Below, one piece after another: positions 1,641 through 22,214 of a DNA stretch of 22,215 nt. Under the pieces are notes generated by a model that was given only the letters and a program-made list of their open reading frames with translations, ran no database searches and was not told where the DNA came from. Position 1 is the stretch's first letter. The number at the start of each line of letters is the position of its first letter. Source of the stretch: a virus; IMG/VR virus record IMGVR_UViG_3300027881_000093, positions 1 to 22,215 of that record; one strand, written 5' to 3'. Made by a program: the position numbers and the translations under genes.

Positions 1641-1697
1641 AAAAAAAATCCCCGCGGGCCTAGAGGCTCTTGCTCGCCGAAGCCTTCCTGGCTTCGG
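1641..1697 (-). other. Hairpin and T8 tract at the end of the protease gene, doubtful terminator
   Basis: CCGAAGCC and GGCTTCGG (1677-1684 and 1690-1697) form a perfect 8-bp stem inside the last codons. A run of eight T on the minus strand (1641-1648) lies about 28 bases later, after GGCCCGCGGGGA. The T-tract is too far from the strong stem, and its adjacent GC stretch makes only a tiny stem, so at best this is a weak or partial terminator. The gap 1584-1659 otherwise holds only the ribosome binding site (GAGGAAAGGA) of the next gene. Confidence 0.3.
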
Positions 1698-2265
1698 GGG
1701 TTTTGTCGGTTTCCGTGGCGTCGTCGGCGGCCTTGCGGCTGTCGGCGTCGTTGGTGGTTTCACCGTTTTTGTCGGTCGGATCCTTCTCCTGGCCCTTGTC
1801 CTTGAGGAACCCAGCCGGGTCCGGAGTCTTCTCGGCGAGCGCCTTCTGGAAGGAGCCCATCGAATCCTTGATCGCGTCGGCGAGGCTGTCCTCACTGCGC
1901 TCGGCGAGCTTGGTCACCGCCTCCTCGAACTTCTCGTCCGAGTCGACAACGAGGGAGCCGGAGACCAGCCGCATGACGGCCAGCTCGCGCGCCTTCGCCG
2001 AGTGGAGCTTCTCGCGCAGGTCGGTGTTCGAGTCGGCGAGCGCCTTCGAGGCGGCTTCGACGGACTCGTTCTTCTCGACCAGTGCGTCCTTCTCGGTCGT
2101 GAGACCGACGATGGACTTGTCACGGGAGGCGAGGTCGGTGCTCAGCTCGACAGCCTTGTCGAGGAGTGCCTCGTCCTTGAGGCCGGCCAGGCTGTCACGG
2201 AGGACAACCTCGGGGGCCTTGGCCTTGGGGGCCGGCGTTTCGGGAGTCTGCTTCTTGTCACTCAT
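1660..2265 (-). CDS. Possible separate scaffold protein from internal start
   Basis: In the protease-scaffold gene, ATG 2265 (MSDKKQTPETPAPKAK) is preceded by GAGGAAA at eight bases, a credible ribosome binding site. It begins exactly where the low-complexity linker and coiled-coil scaffold part start. Translation here would yield a 201-residue scaffold without the protease, the arrangement known from lambda C/Nu3. Not proven; the same bases could be coincidental. Confidence 0.45.
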   Translation of the reverse strand: MSDKKQTPETPAPKAKAPEVVLRDSLAGLKDEALLDKAVELSTDLASRDKSIVGLTTEKDALVEKNESVEAASKALADSNTDLREKLHSAKARELAVMRLVSGSLVVDSDEKFEEAVTKLAERSEDSLADAIKDSMGSFQKALAEKTPDPAGFLKDKGQEKDPTDKNGETTNDADSRKAADDATETDKTPEARKASASKSL

Positions 2266-3894
2266 GGGGGTTTCCTCGTGCTTGGTAAGCATACCGTACG
2301 GATCGGCCGACGTCTCGTCTTTCACCGGACATCCGAGAGCCTTGGCCTTGCGAGACACGCAAGCGAGGACCTTGGCCTTGGAGTCGGCACTGAGCTTGGC
2401 GCGGCCGATAAGGCGCCGAGCGGCAGTCACGTGAGCACAGTCAGGAACGGGGAAAGAGCGATTCGGGCCGCAGAAAGTGCTTGCTTTCAGCTTTTTCCGC
2501 TTGGCCGTCGTCAGCTTGGCGTCGATGAACTCGAGCTCTTCCTCGTCGCAGATGATGGCGATCTGCTGGGCCTTGGAGAGCTTTTTCTCCCTCAGGGCCT
2601 TGTCCACCATCCGGGCACATTCCATGGCGTCAACCAGAGAAACCTGCTCGAGATGGTCATCCATCATGTCGAAATCGAAGGCGTGGACGTGGTGATCGCC
2701 GCTGTTGGCGTCCCGCGTTTCGCCCTTGAAGGTCTTGGCGTTGAGGTCCTCGATCGGGAGGTCCACGGAGTGGTAGTGATGCTCACCCTTGTCGGTGAAC
2801 TCGGTGCCACCCTGGAGGCGCTTCTTGCCCAGGTCCATCTCCAGGTAGAGGATGTGCTGATGCGCGCCGGACTTCTTGGCGATGGCCTTGAAGTACGTGT
2901 ACATGTGGGACATCGGGGCGTCCTCGAACATCTCGCCGGTGGTCATGGAGCGAAGGACATTGCCGATCGCAAAGACCTCGTCGGAGAGGTAGGGGCCGGC
3001 ATCGGACATGTCCACCTCGGCCGGCTTGCCCAGCTTGTCGAGGTCGATGTCCGAGGAGACCGAGACCTGAGTCTTGGTCTTGGGAAGGCCTTCCCCGTCC
3101 CTGGTGGACAGGTCGACCTCGTTGCCGGCGGAGTCCACCAGCATCATCCCAGCGTAGGTCAGGGCCTTGTCGGTGTCGACGTAGTCGGCCTTGTCGCCCT
3201 GCCACGAATCGCTCATCTCGGTGGCCACGGTGATGGCGTTCGAGTTGGCGGGGATGTTCACGTAGGACATCTCGTGGTACTTGAGCTTGCCGGTGATGCC
3301 GTAGCAGCGCTGCTGCCGTTCGGTGTCCTCGTCCTCGTAGACGCGGCCAGGAAGGTGAGAGCAGAAGTCCTCGCTCTTCCAGTCCTTGCCACAGATCGAG
3401 CACCAGAGGTGATCGGAGTTCTGCCCCGTGGAGACCGTGTTGTACCGGCCGTCCAGGATCTTCGCGATCGCCGCGGCGTCGGTGATCATGGCCACGACCT
3501 GGATCAGGCCAGAGCCCTGCTCGTACTCCTTGGCCGGGTTCTTGAAGTCGTCGCTGAACTCAGCTCCCTCGAGGAGCTGGATGAACTGCGAGTTCACGAT
3601 GCGGCCGATCGGCTCGCCGTGATGGTCGTGGTGGCAGAGGACCGGCTTGTCGTACGACGCGGTCCCGCCGTTGGCCTCCGAGCAGAAATCGCCGTAGCAG
3701 TCATGCTGCTTCAGGTACCGGCCCGGGTACACCCGCCTGTTCAGCAGGTAGCCCGAGTAGGTGGCGTTGATCTTGGCCTTGAGGGTCGCGCCCTGGTTGT
3801 CGTTCAGGAAGTTGAGCGTGTCCTTCTTCAGGAACGGGAGCGGCTCGCCCTCGACGACGTCGACGCTGAGCTGGTGGAAATCACGAAAGAGCAT
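1660..3894 (-). CDS. Prohead protease with fused scaffold domain
   Basis: 744 residues. The N-terminal part (~30-225) looks like an HK97-type capsid protease: SGYLLNRRVYPG, then KPVLCHHDHHGEPIGRI (catalytic His about 88-89) and HEMSYVNIPANSNA (catalytic Ser210). A zinc-ribbon-like insert, CSICG with CSH (C165, C168, C178, H180), lies between them. Residues ~340-420 are His-rich, and CGPNRSFPVPDCAHV to AKALGC (475-522) matches a DUF6582-type motif. The C-terminal ~200 residues are a charged coiled coil typical of scaffolds that the protease removes. ATG 3894 follows GGAGG and lies one base after the portal stop. An internal ATG could make the scaffold alone. Confidence 0.85.
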   Translation of the reverse strand: MLFRDFHQLSVDVVEGEPLPFLKKDTLNFLNDNQGATLKAKINATYSGYLLNRRVYPGRYLKQHDCYGDFCSEANGGTASYDKPVLCHHDHHGEPIGRIVNSQFIQLLEGAEFSDDFKNPAKEYEQGSGLIQVVAMITDAAAIAKILDGRYNTVSTGQNSDHLWCSICGKDWKSEDFCSHLPGRVYEDEDTERQQRCYGITGKLKYHEMSYVNIPANSNAITVATEMSDSWQGDKADYVDTDKALTYAGMMLVDSAGNEVDLSTRDGEGLPKTKTQVSVSSDIDLDKLGKPAEVDMSDAGPYLSDEVFAIGNVLRSMTTGEMFEDAPMSHMYTYFKAIAKKSGAHQHILYLEMDLGKKRLQGGTEFTDKGEHHYHSVDLPIEDLNAKTFKGETRDANSGDHHVHAFDFDMMDDHLEQVSLVDAMECARMVDKALREKKLSKAQQIAIICDEEELEFIDAKLTTAKRKKLKASTFCGPNRSFPVPDCAHVTAARRLIGRAKLSADSKAKVLACVSRKAKALGCPVKDETSADPYGMLTKHEETPMSDKKQTPETPAPKAKAPEVVLRDSLAGLKDEALLDKAVELSTDLASRDKSIVGLTTEKDALVEKNESVEAASKALADSNTDLREKLHSAKARELAVMRLVSGSLVVDSDEKFEEAVTKLAERSEDSLADAIKDSMGSFQKALAEKTPDPAGFLKDKGQEKDPTDKNGETTNDADSRKAADDATETDKTPEARKASASKSL

Positions 3895-3895
3895 G

Positions 3896-5998
3896 TTAGG
3901 CCTCCAGAACCTCAAGGTCGGGGCACAGCGAGTCGACGGGCGAGACAACGTCTCGCGGCTTGACCGGGAAGGTGATGGTCTGCTTTGTCGCGTTTCGCAT
4001 GATACCGATGAAGCCAGCGTCCTCTGCACCCTGAGCGAAACCCGCTGCATAGGCGGAAATGCCTGTGCGACGGACGGATCCGGAGACCTGTGTGGCCGCC
4101 GTTTCCGCTCGAATCTGACTCAGAGACGGAGCACCCGACTCGGAAGTGTCAACCATAGTCATACCCCGCGAATGGGCATCCTTCAAGGCGGGGGTCGCAA
4201 AGGTCCTCTGGAAGTTCAGGTATCCGGCCACCGGAATCTTCTCGATATTGTGGGCATCCTTGTACCCATTGGCGTAGATTTCCCAGAGCTGATGGCAGTC
4301 CTGGGCGATCTCCTGCTCGCTCCACCAGCGGACCATCGTGGCCTCGACGTACGCATCGACGAGCATGTCCTTGGCGATCCTCGGCTTCGAGGGAGACTTG
4401 CCGTGCTGGTTGGTGGGCTGATTCTTGTTCGCCGTGGAAGCCGCGGCCGGCGAGGCAGCGGCCTTGGCCTTCGCCACCCTGGCGTCAGCATCAGCCTTGG
4501 CCTCGATGAGCGGAATCTCCTGCACCTCGAGGTACATGTTGGCCCGCTCTTCGTCCTGGACCGGGTCCATCCCGCATCGGGTGCGAGCCTGTTCCTCGGT
4601 CGTGAGGTGGCCCTGGTAGAGCGCCATCTCGTGGTTCTCCTGGCTCCGACGCTCCTCGGTATCGATCGGCGGGAAGTCCAGGTAGACCATGTCGTCTTCG
4701 AGCTGATCACCACGGATATTGAACCCGCCCTCCATCAGGATGAAGAAGATCAGCTTCCAGTTGATCGCGTCTTCGACGGTGCGCTGGATCTCAGTGCAGG
4801 CGTCGATCAGGGTCTGAGTGATCGTCTGGGCGGTGTTGCGGTTCGCACTGCCACCACGGCCCAGGTCGATCTCGGAGAGGCGGATACCACCCAGGACGCG
4901 CTGCTCGATGTGCGTCAGGTACGGCGACAGGTCGAGGGCCTTGCCCTCGGCCCCGATCATGTCGAGGCTGTGTCGCTCGGTGACCACCAGGCCGCCCTCG
5001 AACTCCATGTCCTCGATCTGCTGACGGAAGAGGGAGACCTCGGAGAACGTGACTCCGTCTCGTTCGACATCCGTCGCCGGCGCTGTCTCCGAGCCCACCG
5101 TGGCGATGAACAGGGGGAAGGCGTGCTTGTGGGCGATGATGTCCATCAGCTCCTCGAGACGCCGCATCAGGCGGATGTCATCGAGGACCGGGATGATGTA
5201 GGGCGTGCCGAAGATCCAACCGGTGCGCTTGTCCAACGTGAGGTGGATGACGTCCCGGTAGTCGTACGACTTCTGGCCCTTCTTCTCGCCGCGGTTCAGG
5301 CCAGCGAAGACGTTGAGGTTGTGGACGGTCTGACGCCACTTGACCGGGAGGCCGGTGGCGGTCTGCTTCACGGCCATCGTGGTGGGATCGGCGTTGTACA
5401 GGCCCGAGAGGGGCTGCATCTTCCGACCCTTCCACTTGTACCGGCTGCCGCTCGAGCGCAGCTCGTCGCGCTTCTGCACGATGAAGTGGTTGGAGAAGGC
5501 GACCAGGTTCGTGATGATCTCGCGGAACATCGAGTCCGTGGTCATCTCCGTGGTCATGGCGATTTCCCAGAGCCGACGCTTCACGTACTTCACGCGCTCG
5601 GGGTCACGACCGACGAACCTGAAGCCGTTCTTCAGGATGAGCTCACGGTGGCGCTGCACTGCGCGCGCGAAGAAGGACTCGGTGTCCAGGGCCTTCGCGA
5701 CCTCGGTGAGATCATGCTGAGGACCGACGTACTCGCTCGTGTCCGCAAAGCCACGGGCGGACTTGTACCTCTCGATGTCGAGGGCACCAGGCGTCTGCCG
5801 GCGGAGACTCTTCAGCCCCTCTGCCAGGACAGCGGTCTTTTTCTGGATGGCTGCACCACCCTGAGTTGCCAGCCGGAGATCCTCGATCTGGGTCTCGATG
5901 TCTCGCAGCTTCTGGGGGATCATCGGATTACGACGAGGGACAGGTCGCGGCCGGACGGTGGGCGCAGCGCCCCAGGTGCTAGGCTTATACCAGGTCAT
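3896..5998 (-). CDS. Portal protein
   Basis: 700 residues; forms the dodecameric ring at the capsid vertex through which DNA passes. Portal-like features include an N-terminal helical domain, a core with IIHKH-like and crown/clip segments, and the region near residues 380-440. That region has GGIRLSEIDLGRGG, AQTITQTLIDACTEIQ and DAINWKLIFFILMEGGF, the long wing/tunnel helix pattern familiar from SPP1/HK97-type portals. A Lys/Ala-rich flexible linker (~515-550) precedes an extra C-terminal domain of ~150 residues ending DVVSPVDSLCPDLEVLEA. Gene order terL, unknown, portal, protease, capsid is classical. The C-terminal extension makes it longer than common 400-550-residue portals. Confidence 0.85.
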   Translation of the reverse strand: MTWYKPSTWGAAPTVRPRPVPRRNPMIPQKLRDIETQIEDLRLATQGGAAIQKKTAVLAEGLKSLRRQTPGALDIERYKSARGFADTSEYVGPQHDLTEVAKALDTESFFARAVQRHRELILKNGFRFVGRDPERVKYVKRRLWEIAMTTEMTTDSMFREIITNLVAFSNHFIVQKRDELRSSGSRYKWKGRKMQPLSGLYNADPTTMAVKQTATGLPVKWRQTVHNLNVFAGLNRGEKKGQKSYDYRDVIHLTLDKRTGWIFGTPYIIPVLDDIRLMRRLEELMDIIAHKHAFPLFIATVGSETAPATDVERDGVTFSEVSLFRQQIEDMEFEGGLVVTERHSLDMIGAEGKALDLSPYLTHIEQRVLGGIRLSEIDLGRGGSANRNTAQTITQTLIDACTEIQRTVEDAINWKLIFFILMEGGFNIRGDQLEDDMVYLDFPPIDTEERRSQENHEMALYQGHLTTEEQARTRCGMDPVQDEERANMYLEVQEIPLIEAKADADARVAKAKAAASPAAASTANKNQPTNQHGKSPSKPRIAKDMLVDAYVEATMVRWWSEQEIAQDCHQLWEIYANGYKDAHNIEKIPVAGYLNFQRTFATPALKDAHSRGMTMVDTSESGAPSLSQIRAETAATQVSGSVRRTGISAYAAGFAQGAEDAGFIGIMRNATKQTITFPVKPRDVVSPVDSLCPDLEVLEA

Positions 5999-12720: not shown

Positions 12721-15510
12721 CTATGTCTCCGCACGGGACCTGACCGCGCCGGTGCGCGGACGAGCCCGCTCAAGTTGAGCCACCGCCGGGTTGACGCCAC
12801 CGAGGCGTGCAACCTGATCTCGGAGGTGACTACGCTTAGCCATTCTACCCAATTTCTGGACATATCCAGCATGTCCTGCCTGAAGATGGGGCACAGACTT
12901 CCTCATCTCGCGCGGCAGGCTGTTCACCAGATTGATCGATCGAGGGTCATGAAGCGTGGGCGTTACCCCCTTCGAGAGGGCGTAGTGCTGGGCCCACTTC
13001 TGCGACTCAGACGCGCCACGCTCCGCCATATCCTCGACTGCCTGCCCTGCGAGTTCACGAGGAGCAGTCCCCACACCCCGGTAATTGGGGAAGGCAACGG
13101 GGAATTCGACCGGGACGTTACCCCCTTGGTTCTCGAACGCCATCCAGCCTTCAGGCGCGATCTCGTCGGTGCGCTCGGAAAGCTTCTGCCAGGGCTTGAC
13201 CAGCTCGTTGTCGGCGAGGTGAGTCGACTCGATGAGCGCCTGGCGAGTCTCGCGCAGCCTGACCGCTCCCTCCTCCACCGCGCGCATCGAGCGCCCAGCG
13301 GGCTTCAGCGCGTTGGTATACTGCGTCATCTCCCAGATGGCTTCCTGGGACTTGCCGATGATGTTGGGCGCCTTGGAGAAGTAGTTCGCACCCATGAGCT
13401 GAGACAGGATGTCACGGCCCGAACCGAAGTCAGAGCCGACCCCAGTCGGGTCGATGCCGGGGATGGTGTCATACCGACTCGTCGGCCGGCGGATGCCCTC
13501 GAGCTCAGTCCGGTTGTGCTCGCCGAGGAGGTAGAGCCCACCGAGAGCGACACCAGCCATGGCCATGAACTTGTTGCCCTTGATGCCAGCCTTGTCGAAC
13601 CAGGACCGGGACTGCTGGAGGTTGATGTTCTCCGGACCCAGCTGGCCACCGTGCAGGATCCTCTTCATGTGCTCTTCGGCCTGGATGTCCTCCATGAAAC
13701 CAGCAGCCATCGCCTCCTCGTTGCCGAGAGTGGCGTGGATGAACTTGGACATCTGTGTGCTGTTCGGACCTGCGTTCGCCATGTCCTCGAGCATCCTGCT
13801 GATGCGAGCAGAGGTCATGGTATCGATGTCCGAGTCGTGCAGCCCAGCCTCCATGAGGCTCTTCAGCATCTTCTGGTCGTCGGGGTTCGTGGACAGATCG
13901 GCCAGAGCCTTGACGACGTTCTCCTGCTTCCAACCCAGGGTGAAGTTGAACCCGGTGGTCATCACGGACTCATCACGGCCGGCGATGCCAAGGAGGCTGA
14001 CGTGGCGTCCCTCGGTCGGCTTGTAGGAGCGATCGAACAGCTGGCGCAGTGCCACCGCCCGATCCTCGCTCCCCTTCAGCCGGCGAACGACATCACGGTA
14101 GTCCCCGTAGGTCTCGACGCTACCCATCATCTCGGCAAGGTCTCGAGCGATCTCGTCCGACTGACCGTAGCCAAGGTGGCCCGCGAACTTCTTGTGGAAC
14201 TGGTCGAAGCGCGTTGCCTTGCTCTCCTCACCCACGACGTCCATGAAGGAGCGCAGCTGCTCGTGCTCCACGATGGCACCGCGCACGTTCTTGTTGTCGC
14301 GCACCAGCTGCTCGAGCCTGGCCCTGTCCGTGAAGCGCGGGGCGAAGCCCTTGTCGTGCTTCATCAGGTTCCAGGTCATCTCGAAGATCGGCTCCGCAGC
14401 CTCCTTGACCTTGAAGCGCTTGTGCAGCTGGAGCTGGCGAAGCTTCCTGGACACCTTCGGGGAGCCGGCGGCAGCTTCCTGGATACGAGACCAGTCGAAG
14501 CCCACGTTCCAGCCAGCAAGCTCAACCTGCTGACCGCGGTTCACGTCCCTGAGCATGGAGTCGACCATGCCCTCGACGACACTGACCTCGCTGTGGGTCT
14601 GTCTGCCGGCGAGCACGTGCTTGACGTGACGCTGGAGGCCTTCACGCAGAGGGTTACCAGGGACGAACACGCCGACGTCCCAGTAGCCCTTCATGTCCTG
14701 GCGGGTGAGACGCTTCAGCAGCTCGTCGTTCAGCTCATTCTCAGACGTCGTGTTGCTGAGCTTGAGCATCTCCTCCGTGATGATGTCGGTGAAGACCTTG
14801 CGGTTCATCCCAGCTTCGGTGGCCTTGATGTCACCGGAGCCGTAGAGGAAGTCGACCATGCCGGGCTTGACTTCCCGACCGAAGGAAATCTGGGACAGGC
14901 GCAGACGGTCAGTGGTACGCCGTGCCGGCATACCCATGAGCTTGGACTTGGACTTGGTGCGAAGGCCCTGGGTCTCAACGTCCAACCAGTACCGAGTGGC
15001 CGCCTTCTGGTGGCCACCCTGCACACCTTGAGGGATGGCCCTGCGAGCAGGACCACGTTCCTTGCCTGCCATCTTGCGTGCGGCCGCAGAGCCGAACGAG
15101 TGCCAGGGCTTGTTGTCGTCGACGATCCACTTGCGTTCCAGCTTTGCGCCCCTGGAGTCTTTCCAGTTGCCCAGAGACCCGAAGGTCCCCTTCTCAAAGC
15201 CGACAGCCATATCAGCATGGCGGACGAGTTCCTCGTCCACGTCCATGAACGCCTGCCACTGCTCGTTGTGGGTCATCGCGTTCCACGCCTGGTCGCTGTA
15301 GATCTCGTGGACCCGCCTCTCGTTGACGGCAGGGTTCAGGACCTCGTAGCCCATCTTCTCGAAGAAGGACTGCGCCCGCATGAAGGCAGGGATGTTCTTG
15401 CGCTCCATGTGCGACATCGGCCCCGAGATATAGATCCGGGGCTTGCGCTTTTCCTTCGTGCGGATCTCCGCAGCAAAGTGCTGGAACTGACCGAGGGTGA
15501 CGTCGGGCAC
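12721..15510 (-). CDS. Large multidomain protein: DUF4406-like + DEDD-exonuclease-like + membrane-helix C-terminal region
   Basis: 929 residues. Residues ~25-115 (RIYISGPMSHMERKNIPAF, GYEVLNPA, DVDEELVRHADMAVGF) match the pattern of DUF4406/nucleoside 2-deoxyribosyltransferase-like proteins. From ~173, YWLDVETQGL gives the D177/E179 pair of a DEDD exonuclease, WNVGFDW (D339) fits motif II, and YGQSD (Y448, D452) or H445/D452 could be motif III. The C-terminal half is helical, with a hydrophobic segment at ~648-663 and a Gly-rich stretch (DFGSGRD ~694-700). The start is GTG 15510 with GAGGA upstream. It is followed directly by basic Gly-rich proteins, suggesting a virion-associated or ejected protein. 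Domain calls rest on motif memory; motif III is weakest. Confidence 0.8.
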   Translation of the reverse strand: MPDVTLGQFQHFAAEIRTKEKRKPRIYISGPMSHMERKNIPAFMRAQSFFEKMGYEVLNPAVNERRVHEIYSDQAWNAMTHNEQWQAFMDVDEELVRHADMAVGFEKGTFGSLGNWKDSRGAKLERKWIVDDNKPWHSFGSAAARKMAGKERGPARRAIPQGVQGGHQKAATRYWLDVETQGLRTKSKSKLMGMPARRTTDRLRLSQISFGREVKPGMVDFLYGSGDIKATEAGMNRKVFTDIITEEMLKLSNTTSENELNDELLKRLTRQDMKGYWDVGVFVPGNPLREGLQRHVKHVLAGRQTHSEVSVVEGMVDSMLRDVNRGQQVELAGWNVGFDWSRIQEAAAGSPKVSRKLRQLQLHKRFKVKEAAEPIFEMTWNLMKHDKGFAPRFTDRARLEQLVRDNKNVRGAIVEHEQLRSFMDVVGEESKATRFDQFHKKFAGHLGYGQSDEIARDLAEMMGSVETYGDYRDVVRRLKGSEDRAVALRQLFDRSYKPTEGRHVSLLGIAGRDESVMTTGFNFTLGWKQENVVKALADLSTNPDDQKMLKSLMEAGLHDSDIDTMTSARISRMLEDMANAGPNSTQMSKFIHATLGNEEAMAAGFMEDIQAEEHMKRILHGGQLGPENINLQQSRSWFDKAGIKGNKFMAMAGVALGGLYLLGEHNRTELEGIRRPTSRYDTIPGIDPTGVGSDFGSGRDILSQLMGANYFSKAPNIIGKSQEAIWEMTQYTNALKPAGRSMRAVEEGAVRLRETRQALIESTHLADNELVKPWQKLSERTDEIAPEGWMAFENQGGNVPVEFPVAFPNYRGVGTAPRELAGQAVEDMAERGASESQKWAQHYALSKGVTPTLHDPRSINLVNSLPREMRKSVPHLQAGHAGYVQKLGRMAKRSHLRDQVARLGGVNPAVAQLERARPRTGAVRSRAET

Positions 15511-17726: not shown

Positions 17727-18323
17727 TTAGTCAGACTTCTCGACGAACTCAGCATCGAGTTCGGGTTTCAAGGCTTTCATGATCTTCTGCGCTCCACCGT
17801 TGCCGAGCATGTGCTCGAGCTGCTTCGTGTGCCGCTTGGGCGCAGTCAGCTTATGGTGGAGGACCACGACGAACAGCAGCAACAGGACGCCGCCCAGTGC
17901 GACGCCGACATACATCAGTACGCTGAGTGTGTTCCCATGAGTTGAAAGCTTCTGACTAAGACCGGATGCCTTGTTGATCTCGACTTCCACCTGACCCTTC
18001 AGGTCCCGCGCATCAGACGCTAGACCCTCGATCTCGGTGAGAGTACCCACCACGGCAGTCTTGATCTCCACGAGCTTAGGCTCGAGGTTTACCATCACGC
18101 GCTGAAGCTCCAGGGTAGTCGCACGGATCTGATCCGTGGCTTCCGCAGTGCTCTTGGCCGACGACTTCAGCGCGGGGAGTGTGTCCTCCCTCAGGGTCGC
18201 AGAGGTCTTCTTGATGTCGAGGGCCAGTTCCTTGGTGGACGTAAGAGCCTCGTTCACCCGCGTCCCGATCGAGCCGCAGCTAATCGCAAACATGCAGAGG
18301 AGAACGAGACTCAGATTTTTCAT
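17727..18323 (-). CDS. Lipoprotein with C-terminal transmembrane helix, unimolecular-spanin-like
   Basis: 198 residues. An N-terminal lipoprotein signal (MKNLSLVLLCMFAISC, Cys16) is followed by a long helical, coiled-coil-like region (about 20-130). A strong transmembrane helix (about 133-156, VLMYVGVALGGVLLLLFVVV) and a basic tail of about 40 residues follow. This puts one end in the outer membrane and the other in the inner membrane, the topology known for unimolecular spanins such as T1 gp11, which fuse the two membranes at lysis. The long cytoplasmic tail is not typical of that class. ATG 18323 starts the signal peptide; the upstream extension of the frame overlaps the previous gene and looks non-coding. 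The alternative is a structural envelope protein. Confidence 0.6.
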   Translation of the reverse strand: MKNLSLVLLCMFAISCGSIGTRVNEALTSTKELALDIKKTSATLREDTLPALKSSAKSTAEATDQIRATTLELQRVMVNLEPKLVEIKTAVVGTLTEIEGLASDARDLKGQVEVEINKASGLSQKLSTHGNTLSVLMYVGVALGGVLLLLFVVVLHHKLTAPKRHTKQLEHMLGNGGAQKIMKALKPELDAEFVEKSD

Positions 18324-18336
18324 CGCTACGTCCGCG

Positions 18337-18573
18337 CTATTCGGGCGCCGGTGTGTCGGGCCCCTCGGTCTCGGCGGCCGCAGCCGCAGCCGCGTCGCGC
18401 TCGACCTTGCGCTTGATCGCGTCACCGAGACGGGTGTCCGAAGCGGCCATGGCGTCCATGGCTTCGTCGACGGTCTCGTCCGGGACCTCTTGCTGTCCAG
18501 CCTCGTACGCCTTCGCGGCGGCCTGGCTGAGGGTCACGATGCCCTTGATGATCGCTTCCACGGGAACGGACAC
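18337..18573 (-). CDS. Small Ala-rich acidic protein, unknown
   Basis: 78 residues, starting MSVPVEAIIKGIVTLSQAAA. It is probably mostly helical, with a run of seven alanines near residues 61-67 and an acidic, Pro-containing tail (ETEGPDTPAPE). The start is GTG at 18573, with GGAGGTGA directly upstream and a one-base overlap with the preceding stop (TAGTG). No signal peptide or clear transmembrane helix is seen. Its place between two lipoprotein genes suggests a cytoplasmic helper, but nothing specific can be assigned. Confidence 0.65.
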   Translation of the reverse strand: MSVPVEAIIKGIVTLSQAAAKAYEAGQQEVPDETVDEAMDAMAASDTRLGDAIKRKVERDAAAAAAAETEGPDTPAPE

Positions 18574-18890
18574 TAGTCACCTCCTTGGATGATGGCGTCG
18601 GCTCGTTCCAGAGCGTCGACAGCCGAGGCGATGATGCGGTTGACGACCTCGAGCGGCTTACCAGCCTTGAGAGCGGCCCACGCACGTCGCACGTCCTTGG
18701 CGGCCAGGCGCGTCAGCTCCTGGACCTTCAGTGCCTGATCGACAGAGATCAGGTCGTAGTCGACCGCGGTGGTGGCGAGATCGTTCGTCGCCTCCACAGC
18801 GATCGCTTGCTGCATGATCTTGCCCTTCGGACTCGAGGCGCAAGCCGCGAGCACGAGGAACATCGCCATCAGCGAAGCTTTCAGCTTCAT
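18573..18890 (-). CDS. Small predicted lipoprotein
   Basis: 105 residues. Residues 1-17 (MKLKASLMAMFLVLAAC) are a textbook lipoprotein signal with Cys17 and Ala-Ser following, consistent with outer-membrane sorting. The mature part is helical and Ala-rich, without transmembrane segments, and contains an acidic/basic amphipathic stretch (ALKVQELTRLAAKDVRRAW). GAGGA precedes ATG 18890 at a workable distance. It lies between the holin-like gene and the spanin-like gene. It could be an outer-membrane lysis lipoprotein (o-spanin-like) or an unrelated envelope protein; it lacks the Pro-rich composition of classic Rz1. Confidence 0.65.
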   Translation of the reverse strand: MKLKASLMAMFLVLAACASSPKGKIMQQAIAVEATNDLATTAVDYDLISVDQALKVQELTRLAAKDVRRAWAALKAGKPLEVVNRIIASAVDALERADAIIQGGD

Positions 18891-18901
18891 GGGGATCCTC
18901 C

Positions 18902-19078
18902 CTACTTCTTTTTCTTGGCCTTGTTGCGCTGAACGGCAACTCCGCCGGCAGCGAGTGAAACGAGAGATGCACCGCCGTAGACAAGCTCGGGCGGCAGAGC
19001 CCATCCGAGGTGGACACCGAGGGCGCTAACCCATGCGGCGACCGCAGCGAGGAACTCAGGGCGTAGCAAAAACTTCAT
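18902..19078 (-). CDS. Two-helix small membrane protein, holin candidate
   Basis: 58 residues, starting MKFLLRPEFLAAVAAW and ending in a basic tail (VQRNKAKKKK). Two hydrophobic helices are visible, about residues 8-28 and 32-50, separated by a short turn containing PPE. Short length, two transmembrane helices and a very positive cytoplasmic end fit small holins, though such features are not specific. GGAGGT sits at ideal distance before ATG 19078, one of the best ribosome binding sites in the window. It is followed within 12 bases by a lipoprotein gene and then by a spanin-like gene, which supports a lysis role. No endolysin is present in the window. Confidence 0.7.
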   Translation of the reverse strand: MKFLLRPEFLAAVAAWVSALGVHLGWALPPELVYGGASLVSLAAGGVAVQRNKAKKKK

Positions 19079-19141: not shown

Positions 19142-19486
19142 CTAGAAATCGAAGGTCCACCAGAACCCGAAGTAGAACACCGTGTTCTGACGGAACTGCA
19201 ATGCACCCTCAGGGTTAAGTTCCGGGGAAGTCACCGCGCCGAAGAATCTGACCTTGTGGGGCCGGCCCTTCTTGTCCTCGAAGTCGAACCCGACCGATCC
19301 GCCTATCGGCTTGTCCGGCCGGTGATAGTCCGAGGAGAAATGGCCCCAGTCAGGGGTACCGCCGACCTTGAAGGTTCCGCAGCCGGCAAAGAAAAGGGCG
19401 CCCACCAGCAGAAAGGTAGCGAAATTCCATACTGAACGGCGAGGCCTGCTCGGCGATCGGGATCCGCTGGGGGCGCCGGGAATCAT
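19142..19486 (-). CDS. Predicted small lipoprotein ending in barrel-like strands
   Basis: 114 residues. A basic, Ser/Pro-rich start (about 20 residues) precedes a hydrophobic stretch (FATFLLVGALFFAGC) with Cys36 as the likely lipidation site. The mature part contains strand-like segments (GGSVGFDFED, HKVRFFGAV, NTVFYFGFWWTFDF) and ends in Phe, again suggesting an outer-membrane location. ATG 19486 lies four bases after the previous stop. An ATG at 19513 inside the previous gene is possible but adds nothing recognisable. It may be a partner of the barrel-like lipoprotein directly upstream. Family not recognised. Confidence 0.6.
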   Translation of the reverse strand: MIPGAPSGSRSPSRPRRSVWNFATFLLVGALFFAGCGTFKVGGTPDWGHFSSDYHRPDKPIGGSVGFDFEDKKGRPHKVRFFGAVTSPELNPEGALQFRQNTVFYFGFWWTFDF

Positions 19487-19490
19487 AGTA

Positions 19491-20003
19491 CTACCAGCGG
19501 AGAGACCACCCAACCATGAAACCTGTGCCAGGCTTCCGGGCGTGCTCTCCGTAGGTGTCTCGAGCGGCGTTCGAGAAGTTCATGTCGGCTCCAATCCAGG
19601 GGCCCATCTCCGTGGGGCCCACCTTGAAGAAGACGCCGACGCGGGCGTAGCCGGTGAGCTCAGCCCAGGTGCCATCTCCGCCGGCCTGGTCATCCCAGCC
19701 GAGGTAGAGGTGCGGCCGCAAGCCTATCTCTCCCCACCAGCGAGGCGAGTGGCCGTGCTCGAGCCTCACACCACCCTTGAGCTTCAGGACCCGCCTGGCC
19801 TCGCCCCACTCGGTCTCATCGGTATACCCGAGTGCGAAGCCGCCGACAGCACCGAAGGCTGTCTCAGCGTCCCTGTCGAGGCCGTGGACGGAGTACTCGG
19901 AGGTCCAGGAGGGCTCAGGCTCCCAGTCGTAGATGACCGTGTCCTCGTGGGTGAGGGCACAGCCGACCGAAGCCAGCAGGAGGGTGACCAGCAGAGTCTT
20001 CAT
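19491..20003 (-). CDS. Predicted outer-membrane lipoprotein with beta-barrel character
   Basis: 170 residues. Residues 1-15 (MKTLLVTLLLASVGC) form a lipoprotein signal with Cys15 as the lipidation site. The rest has several alternating hydrophobic/polar, Gly- and aromatic-rich stretches typical of barrel strands, for example AFGAVGGFALGYT, WWGEIGLRPHLYLGW, YARVGVFFKV and GTGFMVGWSLRW. It ends in Trp, as outer-membrane barrels often end in an aromatic residue. I chose ATG 20003 because it begins the signal peptide; the frame stays open to 20222 but that part is not protein-like. The leader before the ATG is pyrimidine-rich with no ribosome binding site, which is unusual here. A role in altering the host surface, such as blocking reinfection, is inference only. 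Confidence 0.65.
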   Translation of the reverse strand: MKTLLVTLLLASVGCALTHEDTVIYDWEPEPSWTSEYSVHGLDRDAETAFGAVGGFALGYTDETEWGEARRVLKLKGGVRLEHGHSPRWWGEIGLRPHLYLGWDDQAGGDGTWAELTGYARVGVFFKVGPTEMGPWIGADMNFSNAARDTYGEHARKPGTGFMVGWSLRW

Positions 20004-20048
20004 GATGGAGGAGGGAGCCCCGAGTGAGAAAAGCAACGGGTGGGAGGT

Positions 20049-20085: not shown

Positions 20086-20493
20086 CTACCTCTTCGGAAG
20101 CCAGGCGTTGGCTTCCTCGATGATCTCGTCGGTGATCTCGCGCATCGGAGCACCGTTCTGTTCCATGCAGGCGAAGCCGAGAGCGGTGATCTTCCGGACG
20201 GTCTCGAGAGCCTCACCGTCACCCGGGCAGCGGGAGACCTGGTGGATGGCCTCGTCGAGATAGTCCTTCATGTAGGTCAGGAACGACGCGGTGCCATGGG
20301 TACCGTTCGAGGGCGTGGTCTGCGGGTTCCAGCGGAAGAGCTGGTACATGCGCTCGCCGCGCACGACCTCGGCGACGTAGTCGAAGGTGTGTGCCGGCGG
20401 GGTGTCGGTGATGCCTTCGATGGCTTCCTGGATCCGCATGGCGACGGCACCGGTGTAGATGGAGTCGCGGCAGAGAGTCTTGGCGGTGATCAT
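20086..20493 (-). CDS. Conserved-type small phage protein of unknown function
   Basis: 135 residues, mostly helical. The part from about residue 65 on reads NGTHGTASFLTYMKDYLDEA, followed by ETVRKITALGFACMEQNGAP. From memory this resembles a protein family common in tailed phages (a YMxDYLxEA helix and an RKITALGxxCMEQNGAP helix) whose function is not established; I cannot confirm this by search. The ATG at 20493 has a strong GAGGAGG ribosome binding site and overlaps the MPRRV array by four bases, so it appears to be co-translated with the array. A hairpin lies just after the stop. Confidence 0.75.
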   Translation of the reverse strand: MITAKTLCRDSIYTGAVAMRIQEAIEGITDTPPAHTFDYVAEVVRGERMYQLFRWNPQTTPSNGTHGTASFLTYMKDYLDEAIHQVSRCPGDGEALETVRKITALGFACMEQNGAPMREITDEIIEEANAWLPKR

Positions 20494-20708
20494 GTGAGCC
20501 TCCTCGGGGCTACGGTTCTCGGAACTATGGTCATGGAGAACCGAACCATCGGTCTCCGGCAGTAGGCTTCAACATAGCGGGCGAAGTCGCGCCCGTCAAC
20601 CATCAAGTTCTCGGTCTTCGAGTCGTTGTACCCCAGGCTCCTCAGCGCGAAGGCACACGCGATGTCGAAGTTGGAGAAGCACGAGATCTCACTTACGCGC
20701 CGGGGCAT
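20490..20708 (-). CDS. Small-array member 6 (MPRRV start), function unknown
   Basis: 72 residues beginning MPRRVSEISCF. A helix (FDIACAFALRSLGY) is followed by a polar loop, a second helix (GRDFARYVEAYCRR) and a strand with basic tail (RFSMTIVPRTVAPRRLT). GAGGAAAC precedes ATG 20708, a good ribosome binding site. It starts 20 bases inside the previous gene and overlaps the following gene by four bases (ATGA). It is the last member of the array. No homologous family was recognised. Confidence 0.75.
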   Translation of the reverse strand: MPRRVSEISCFSNFDIACAFALRSLGYNDSKTENLMVDGRDFARYVEAYCRRPMVRFSMTIVPRTVAPRRLT

Positions 20709-20967
20709 GTTTCCTCGGAACAGTACGCTGCATGCCGTACCAGTAGTACTTGTTCGCCAGCCGGCCCATCATGTTGTCCACGACGTTGGTGCCCTGCATC
20801 TCCATGTTGGCCTGCACGAACCGGTCGACGAACTTGCGGATCCTGCCCATGCGCTCAGAGTAGTTGGTGCCGTCGAGGGTGAACAGGCCAGTGCCCTCGC
20901 AGGCGATGACTGCTGCAACCTCGAACCCGTTCTTCACGGGGATGATTCGATCAACGCGGCGGGGCAT
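20689..20967 (-). CDS. Small-array member 5 (MPRRV start), function unknown
   Basis: 92 residues beginning MPRRVDRIIPVKNG. It contains two short strands (VAAVIACEG, GLFTLDG), a basic helix (ERMGRIRKFVDRFVQANM), a second aromatic helix (NMMGRLANKYYWYGM) and a basic tail (TVPRKHAPARK). GGTGG lies four bases before ATG 20967, supporting the start. Its start lies within the end of the preceding gene (17-base overlap), and its own last 20 bases contain the start of the following gene. Function unknown; possibly nucleic-acid binding given the basic ends, but that is only a guess from composition. Confidence 0.75.
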   Translation of the reverse strand: MPRRVDRIIPVKNGFEVAAVIACEGTGLFTLDGTNYSERMGRIRKFVDRFVQANMEMQGTNVVDNMMGRLANKYYWYGMQRTVPRKHAPARK

Positions 20968-21232
20968 TCTTCCACCACTGCCTTCCCGAGAACGTCCGGC
21001 TCTTCATGACCTGGAGCGCGCGCTTCCGTAGGTCGTAGTACCAGAGCGTGATCCAGTTCTCCGAGTCCTTGATGTCCGTCGGGACCGCATTCTTGTCCAC
21101 GGTCATACCCTTGTCCGCTGCACGCACCAGGCGCATGCCACACCCGTGCAGGAGCTTCACCAGCAGCTCGGGAGTGCTGGCGTCAGAGCCCTGGCCGTCG
21201 ACCAGACAGATCACTCGTACACGTCTCGGCAT
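20951..21232 (-). CDS. Small-array member 4 (MPRRV start), function unknown
   Basis: 93 residues beginning MPRRVRVICLVDGQG, a beta-strand-like opening followed by an acidic loop. A helix follows (TPELLVKLLHGCGMRLV), then a polar middle, then an aromatic/basic helix (NWITLWYYDLRKRALQVM) and a basic tail rich in Trp, Pro and Arg. ATG 21232 overlaps the previous stop by one base. The last 17 bases are also the start of the next gene: the same DNA that encodes MPRRV downstream is read here as NAPPR-stop. No known family recognised. Confidence 0.75.
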   Translation of the reverse strand: MPRRVRVICLVDGQGSDASTPELLVKLLHGCGMRLVRAADKGMTVDKNAVPTDIKDSENWITLWYYDLRKRALQVMKSRTFSGRQWWKNAPPR

Positions 21233-21471
21233 CAGCGGCCTGCCCTTCGCGGCTTGATGTCGAAGAACGGACCAGCGGCCTTCCTGAGGTTGACGAGGAG
21301 CATTGCGATGTGCATCATGTCGTCCGCTTGTTTCTGAGGAGTCTTCGGCGCGTGCGAATGCTGACCCACGATCACCTGGTCACCGTAGGTGAGCACCCTG
21401 TGCAGGTTGTTCACGATGGAGGGTTTGTCGGCTTCGCATCCAACAGCGATCATGGCGACACGTCTGGGCAT
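21232..21471 (-). CDS. Small-array member 3 (MPRRV start), function unknown
   Basis: 79 residues beginning MPRRVAMIAVG. After the first strand comes a helix (PSIVNNLHRVLTYG), a His-rich polar linker (GQHSHAPKTPQ) and a second helix (ADDMMHIAMLLVNLRKAA), then a strand and basic tail (FFDIKPRRAGR). The chosen ATG (21471) forms TGATG with the previous stop and has AGGAAGAG upstream. The frame is open for eight more codons to 21495, but that start would break the shared MPRRV beginning and extend the overlap. The stop forms TGATG with the next gene. No function recognised. Confidence 0.75.
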   Translation of the reverse strand: MPRRVAMIAVGCEADKPSIVNNLHRVLTYGDQVIVGQHSHAPKTPQKQADDMMHIAMLLVNLRKAAGPFFDIKPRRAGR

Positions 21472-21731
21472 CAGCTTCTCTTCCTGAGCACACACTCAGC
21501 AATCGTCCACCGTCCATGATCAAAATAGTAGCGCACCTTTCTGGTGTACCAACTCGCGAAGCTCTTCGCGACCATAGCGACCGCATCACCGTGGCTCTCG
21601 TTCGGGAACTGCGAGACAAAGTGGGCATCCAGATCAGCATCCGTTTCACGGAACGCCTCAAAGAGAGCTTTCTCCGCGCAGTGCTCCCGCAGGCGGTCAT
21701 CGACAGGGGTGAGATCAACTCGTCTAGGCAT
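21471..21731 (-). CDS. Small-array member 2 (MPRRV start), function unknown
   Basis: 86 residues beginning MPRRVDLTPV. A helix-rich middle (EHCAEKALFEAF) is followed by an amphipathic aromatic helix (VAKSFASWYTRKVRYYF) and a final strand with basic end (TIAECVLRKRS). ATG 21731 is preceded by GAGGAAGTG, a good ribosome binding site at normal spacing, and overlaps the previous stop by one base. A GTG directly before the ATG is the alternative start. Arginine codons in the conserved peptide are AGA CGA, different from other members, so the shared peptide is not a recent DNA duplication. Function unknown; the architecture suggests it is a diverged paralog of its neighbours. Confidence 0.75.
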   Translation of the reverse strand: MPRRVDLTPVDDRLREHCAEKALFEAFRETDADLDAHFVSQFPNESHGDAVAMVAKSFASWYTRKVRYYFDHGRWTIAECVLRKRS

Positions 21732-21928
21732 CACTTCCTCGGCACGATGAAGAACTGAATATCCACGTGGGGGAACTTGAGCCCAGCCATGAAGCGATAG
21801 GCGAAGAGCTCTGCGCGGACTGCCATCGAACCTTGATGTTCCTCGAGCAAGACCTTGTACACGGCCTCTGCGTTCTCACGGAGGCCTTTTATAGTGCCGA
21901 CTGAACCAAGTTGTACCTGAGCAGGCAT
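21731..21928 (-). CDS. Small-array member 1 (MPAQV start), function unknown
   Basis: 65 residues beginning MPAQVQLGSV. It is the first and most divergent member of a run of six small genes. It shares the plan seen in the others: M-P-x-x-V, a short beta-like stretch, a helix (about residues 14-30), a second helix with aromatic and basic residues (about 35-50), and a final strand ending in a basic tail (FFIVPRK). The ATG at 21928 overlaps the previous stop by one base. A GTG one codon earlier is possible, but ATG is preferred because it places the MPxxV motif at the N terminus as in its neighbours. The stop overlaps the next ATG as TGATG, so translation is probably coupled. No known family was recognised. 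Confidence 0.7.
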   Translation of the reverse strand: MPAQVQLGSVGTIKGLRENAEAVYKVLLEEHQGSMAVRAELFAYRFMAGLKFPHVDIQFFIVPRK

Positions 21929-22152
21929 CACTCATCGCCCTTGGGCAGGTAGGACAGGATGCGATCGAGCACCTCGCGAGCCTTGGTCTCGAGACGCTTC
22001 ACCACTTCCGCCATCTCCATGTGCGCCTTGGCTACCTCTTCAGCAGCGACGGTGACACGCTCGGTCTTCTTTTCGAGCTCCTCCATGCGGGAGTGACTGA
22101 CGATCGAGCATCCGACGAAGAGAAGGGTGGCGAGGATCAGAAGCCTTCGCAC
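21928..22152 (-). CDS. Small predicted lipoprotein with coiled-coil tail
   Basis: This predicted protein has 74 residues. It opens with a short basic n-region and hydrophobic stretch (MRRLLILATLLFVGC), with Cys15 as a plausible lipidation site, although Phe at -3 is not ideal. The rest (about residues 20-70) is a charged heptad-like helix rich in Glu and Lys, probably a coiled coil. I chose the GTG at 22152 because GAGAGG lies just upstream and because it yields a standard lipoprotein signal. An earlier GTG at 22194 would add 14 charged residues, lacks a good ribosome binding site and would overlap the upstream gene more. The stop overlaps the next ATG by one base (TGATG). It might be an envelope tether or Rz1/Lpp-like protein, but no family was recognised. 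Confidence 0.65.
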   Translation of the reverse strand: MRRLLILATLLFVGCSIVSHSRMEELEKKTERVTVAAEEVAKAHMEMAEVVKRLETKAREVLDRILSYLPKGDE

Positions 22153-22214
22153 ATCCCTCTCCCGTTGCACTTCTCGCAGTCGCGCCAGGTCCACCTGTAG
22201 CCCTGACGTGCATC
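22137..22214 (-). CDS. C-terminal fragment of a gene with a CxxCxGxG zinc motif (cut by right edge)
   Basis: The last 25 codons of a reading frame enter from the right edge and stop at TGA (22139-22137). The peptide contains CEKCNGRGMCEGF, in which CxxCxGxG matches half of the zinc-binding repeat known from DnaJ-type zinc fingers and many small phage proteins. The frame overlaps the start of the next gene by 16 bases, the tight packing seen elsewhere in this cluster. That packing also supports the later GTG start chosen for that gene. Only the tail is present, so function cannot be judged and a chance open frame is possible. Confidence 0.5.
   Translation of the reverse strand, partial: DARQGYRWTWRDCEKCNGRGMCEGF

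Follow-up and report, generated by a model that had tools for sequence, protein, structure and literature searches.

Six overlapping small genes, five beginning MPRRV, form a tandem array in a fragment of a large tailed phage

The window analyzed here is the complete IMG/VR record IMGVR_UViG_3300027881_000093 (22,215 bases). It is part of the genome of a large tailed phage, and its minus strand carries genes for a capsid, a portal, a terminase, and a sigma factor as well as a head maturation protease-like domain. At its right end, on the minus strand from 21928 down to 20490, lie six consecutive small genes, here called g1 to g6. The first of these, g1 (65 aa, 21731..21928), begins MPAQV and is the most deviant member, retaining the proline at position 2 and the valine at position 5. 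The remaining five all begin with the pentapeptide MPRRV: g2 (86 aa, MPRRVDLTPV, 21471..21731), g3 (79 aa, MPRRVAMIAV, 21232..21471), g4 (93 aa, MPRRVRVICLV, 20951..21232), g5 (92 aa, MPRRVDRIIPV, 20689..20967), and g6 (72 aa, MPRRVSEISCF, 20490..20708). The array is flanked upstream by g0 (88 aa, 21928..22194, minus strand), a small lipobox-containing protein with a marginal spanin-like match (phrog_739, E 0.011), and downstream by g7 (135 aa, 20086..20493, minus strand); MPRRV is absent from both neighbors. The g7 protein has no Pfam or PHROG match and resembles hypothetical proteins of Rhizobium phages. It belongs to an unnamed family found in the Rhizobium phages RL2RES, RL38J1, AF3, and P10VF (41-42% identity over 78 aa) and in one 595-kb uncultured phage.

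The arrangement noted in a preliminary description of this DNA, six tiny genes of which five start with MPRRV and the first with MPAQV, each with its start at or within the stop of its predecessor, is borne out by the open reading frames of 65-93 aa and by overlaps of 1-20 nt at all junctions. One-base TGATG overlaps join g0 to g1, g1 to g2 (where the g2 start overlaps the g1 stop), g2 to g3, and g3 to g4, followed by overlaps of 17 nt between g4 and g5, 20 nt between g5 and g6, and 4 nt between g6 and g7. The calls for g1 to g6 rest on the open reading frame, its translation, and the coding frame. By codon score, the minus frame used is the best of the six frames for g0 to g5 and for g7; g6 scores -0.11 against -0.09 for one plus frame and is thus the least certain coding call.

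Shine-Dalgarno-like purine runs stand directly ahead of each start, within the preceding gene. The element GTGCCGAGGAAGTG (21732..21745, minus strand) occupies the end of g1 just before the g2 ATG and is read in g1 as VPRK plus the start of the stop codon. The sequences preceding the starts of g2 (CCGAGGAAGTG, read as PRK in the gene before), g3 (CTCAGGAAGAGAAGCTG, LRKRS), g4 (CGAAGGGCAGGCCGCTG, RRAGR), g6 (CCGAGGAAAC, PRK), and g7 (CCGAGGAGGCTCAC, PRRLT) likewise resemble ribosome-binding sites, embedded in the last codons of the preceding gene. The basic tails of these proteins are therefore partly a by-product of coupling, since the Shine-Dalgarno sequence of the next gene is read as PRK, RKR, or PRR, and the C-terminal similarity of the bodies stems in part from these embedded sites. 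A basic tail had been proposed as part of a plan common to all six proteins; ends of the PRK, RKR, or PRR type do occur in most of the genes, but not all six proteins are basic, the net charge being +2 for g1 and 0 for g2. The GC3 of codons 2-9 is 0.42-0.50 (about 0.46) in the array versus 0.70-0.73 in other genes (p 0.002), which is consistent with active, real initiation regions. On the evidence of these junctions, the six genes are probably translated in succession. The end of g6 (20490-20530, minus strand; GTTCCGAGAACCGTAGCCCCGAGG) resembles the g5/g6 junction (GTTCCGAGGAAACATGCCCCGGCG) and is possibly the relic of a further start that has been lost.

There are five occurrences of ATGCCNMGNCGNGT in the record, all of them within the array, and none in the reversed control, and MP[RK][RK]V is absent outside the array in all six frames of the window. 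Given the base composition found here, the chance of a gene starting with M-P-R-R-V is about 1.4e-5. Among 1110 adjacent small-ORF start pairs drawn from 57 sequences (1.007 Mb of compared phage DNA), the only pairs with identical first four residues are the four within the array. An origin of the shared starts in coincidence or spurious open reading frames would find a foothold in the neutral codon score of g6 and in nothing else; set against a chance of about 1e-5 per gene, the coding frame scores, and the uniqueness among the 1110 pairs, we regard its likelihood as negligible.

Over their first 15 nt, g2 to g6 are identical at 10-13 of 15 positions (2-5 bases apart), and every difference is synonymous, including switches between AGA and CGN. 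A recheck of the arginine codons listed previously (CGG CGC, CGC CGC, AGA CGT, AGA CGT, and AGA CGA) found them to be correct. Codons that are rare in this genome, such as AGA, CGA, GTA, and GTT, are frequent in the MPRRV starts (synonymous use in this genome: AGA 3%, GTA 3%, GTT 9%). As the amino acids are fixed while the codons differ, MPRRV is retained at the level of the protein and not through recent copying of DNA; the earlier suggestion to this effect is supported both by the synonymous differences and by the absence of the peptide from the neighboring genes.

These codon differences also bear on whether MPRRV could be the by-product of a DNA or RNA element at the start codon, or of local codon effects. 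Such an element would fit the low GC3 of the start regions and the purine-rich ribosome-binding sites ahead of them, and it has a known counterpart in the Cluster K mycobacteriophages (TM4, Pixie, and Anaya), in which many small genes likewise share a motif at their starts. The mycobacteriophage SAS elements, however, are conserved DNA (PMC3203893). These start-associated sequences are conserved as DNA tied to the downstream start codon, whereas in the array it is the residues that are conserved, over DNA that varies, with 2-5 of the 15 nt changed at synonymous positions in g2 to g6, AGA versus CGN included. Since g0 and g7 also lack MPRRV, we consider an explanation at the nucleic acid level very improbable.

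Searches for relatives of g1 to g6 gave no match above chance in Pfam, PHROGs, NCBIfam, or PADLOC (one PADLOC match, E 0.037), and there was no match in a PDB profile search, in 50,697 phage records, or in 72,556 plasmids. No IMG/VR relatives of g5 or g7 were found. Relatives of the terminase and the sigma factor have neither an MPRRV start nor a member of the array profile; the terminase relatives reach at most about 39% identity. Scans for paired MPRRV starts, which covered motif gaps of 176-294 nt in IMG/VR and of 238-268 in GTDB contigs, considered MP-R/S-R/S-V (or I/M) starts, and may have left out close relatives of the window, recovered no second array; they yielded only chance, antisense, or repeat matches. 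Those scan matches that could be read as adjacent small genes proved to be chance or antisense open reading frames, simple repeats, or near-identical tandem copies. In the best-looking candidate, L111 (2645-3159), the MPRRV frames are the antisense of two tandemly duplicated small genes (MKLSEAKRGTRVIVDMG... and MKLSEAQIDKQVIVQMA...), both of which hold an MPRRV start on the opposite strand; antisense frames of this type are a source of false MPRRV matches. The array is real and, within the material searched, unique.

The preliminary description had left two origins side by side, an old and rapidly diversifying paralog family or unrelated proteins carrying a common N-terminal tag. In global alignments anchored at both ends, the bodies after residue 5 reach a mean z of 1.16 over 15 pairs. 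Control sets of six similar-sized small phage proteins from TM4, RL2RES, and T4 have a mean z of 0.11 (sd 0.27), with 0 of 5000 sets reaching the array value, and comparison of forward with reversed bodies gives a z of -0.15. The top three of the 15 pairs are the neighbors g1-g2 (p 0.007), g3-g4 (p 0.006), and g5-g6 (p 0.002; all uncorrected for 15 tests), a pattern expected from tandem duplication. Trimming both ends reduces the excess (P 0.06 after removal of 9 and 6 residues, 0.21 after 12 and 8), which confines the shared signal to the first dozen and the last few residues. Beyond residue 5, no local alignment of the bodies reaches significance, comparison of profiles that exclude the first five residues detects no relationship, and traces of duplication at the DNA level within the array are not significant, with no clear residual repeat. 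The weak end-anchored similarity therefore favors paralogy, and common ancestry of the bodies along their whole length is likely but not proven; the null local and profile comparisons mean that paralogs and tagged unrelated proteins are not fully separated.

The array may consist of tandem paralogs that have diverged in the ordinary way, with MPRRV forming the start of a core beta strand or a binding surface and having no targeting role, for example as subunits of a heteromeric complex made in fixed ratio. This would agree with the anchored similarity, which extends into residues 6-12 as a strand of the V-x-x-I-x-x-V type and is best between neighbors, and with the tight coupling that is typical of complex subunits. 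Full identity at the outermost N-terminus combined with some 20-30% identity elsewhere would, however, be unusual for conservation driven by a protein core. The same adjacency and coupling of small duplicates are seen in other tandem phage paralogs such as the L111 pair, but these align readily over their full length, whereas the members of the array can be aligned at the N-terminus only. AlphaFold2, given the six proteins as the alignment, returned models with pLDDT between 45 and 55 (54.8 for g6, 44.6 for g4), which establish no fold, and the strand-helix-helix-strand plan read from the sequences at first was not confirmed. On balance we consider the ordinary-paralog explanation doubtful.

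A comparison with the internal proteins of the T-even phages shows both similarities and significant differences. T-even internal proteins are small and diverse and have only an N-terminal signal in common; this stretch targets them for packaging in the head, and their bodies, once injected, inhibit different restriction enzymes (PMC3012670, PMC12373910). To say that the layout has no described parallel was accordingly too strong. Translated as a yardstick, T4 ipI, ipII, and ipIII begin MKTFKEF, MKTYQEF, and MKTYQEF; their bodies after residue 10 give pairwise z values of 0.5-1.4, which are not significant, as compared to 3.7-5.7 for the full lengths. The T4 bodies after residue 10 are thus about as unrelated as those of the array. 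Both groups consist of small diverse proteins with locally unalignable bodies and a common short N-terminus, and two of the three T4 ip genes are neighbors, as the genes of the array are adjacent. By analogy, g1 to g6 might be an internal set of the T-even kind, in which unrelated or hypervariable bodies with a capsid-targeting signal are packed into the head and injected to block host defenses, as their small size, their diverse bodies, and the restriction of similarity to the N-terminus would suggest.

One protein of the window has a domain resembling head maturation proteases, a possible sign of the processed head that would go with such a set: phrog_18299 (head maturation protease) matches residues 190-277 of this 796-aa protein with an E value of 2.8e-06. 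This reading frame (1660-4050, minus strand) joins the protease-like domain to a long coiled C-terminal part and is probably a protease-scaffold fusion.

Against an internal set of the T-even kind, the array tag MPRRV is unrelated to the T4 signal MKTYQEFIAE (MKT[FY]xEF) and comprises five residues, as opposed to about 10-20 in T4. Unlike the T4 tags, which are removed by the head protease, residues 6-22 of all six array proteins lack a common x-x-E site on inspection for the T4-type x-x-Glu motif, which may not be the specificity of the protease of this phage. The T4 ip genes are also fewer and do not overlap, g1 and g2 are hardly basic, and the weak similarity among the array bodies speaks for paralogy. 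Since signal sequence, length, and cleavage site are unmatched, we do not class the array with the T-even internal proteins, and a set of that kind seems rather unlikely here. The array is best filed under a kind that is already known, that of small phage proteins encoded in clusters, whose starts are conserved and whose bodies have diversified.

The explanation that we prefer, to which we would give an even chance of being right, is that g1 to g6 are a tandem family, coupled in translation, that diversifies rapidly while keeping the N-terminal MPRRV as a functional element. Tandem duplication of one small gene would have produced the six coupled genes, the bodies would then have diverged quickly, and purifying selection would have held MPRRV in place. 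In the cell, a ribosome ending one gene may start the next through the embedded site, so that the six proteins would be made together. Because the N-terminus is invariant and the bodies are nearly random, the N-terminus is expected to have a job common to all six. By analogy with the T-even capsid-targeting signal, the most likely job would be to bring small effectors with diverse bodies to a single partner or site; for the pentapeptide, a part in a core strand or in the interface of a complex is nearly as likely. As the window carries a capsid, portal, terminase, and head maturation protease-like domain, the proteins could in principle be delivered inside a processed head. A bolder version, which we think unlikely, would make MPRRV a new address-tag, distinct from the described capsid-targeting sequences, that sends a rapidly renewed tandem set of small anti-host proteins into virions or to a single target in the host, the tag staying fixed while the bodies behind it are newly recruited or diversify.

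If the N-terminus of the translationally coupled family is indeed a signal, the array would represent a second, independent case of cargo tagging in phages beside the T-even internal proteins, and shared starts, in place of similarity between bodies, could be used to locate injected or co-localized anti-defense proteins in uncultured phages. If the array is only a paralog family, it offers an unusually clear view of rapid divergence among coupled small phage genes that retain one short element.

Two further features of the window were observed. A 929-aa protein encoded in the head gene cluster (12721-15510, minus strand) carries at its N-terminus a nucleoside 2-deoxyribosyltransferase-like/DUF4406 domain (E 1e-11 to 5e-16); it also contains a DVETQGL motif that recalls DEDD exonucleases. 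Five small minus-strand reading frames clustered around the array (17727-18332, 18573-18914, 19142-19435, 19491-20027, and 21928-22194) have a lipoprotein-like signal and a lipobox-like cysteine, as in LLASVGC, ALFFAGC, FLVLAAC, CMFAISC, and ATLLFVGC, an unusually large number for one phage segment.
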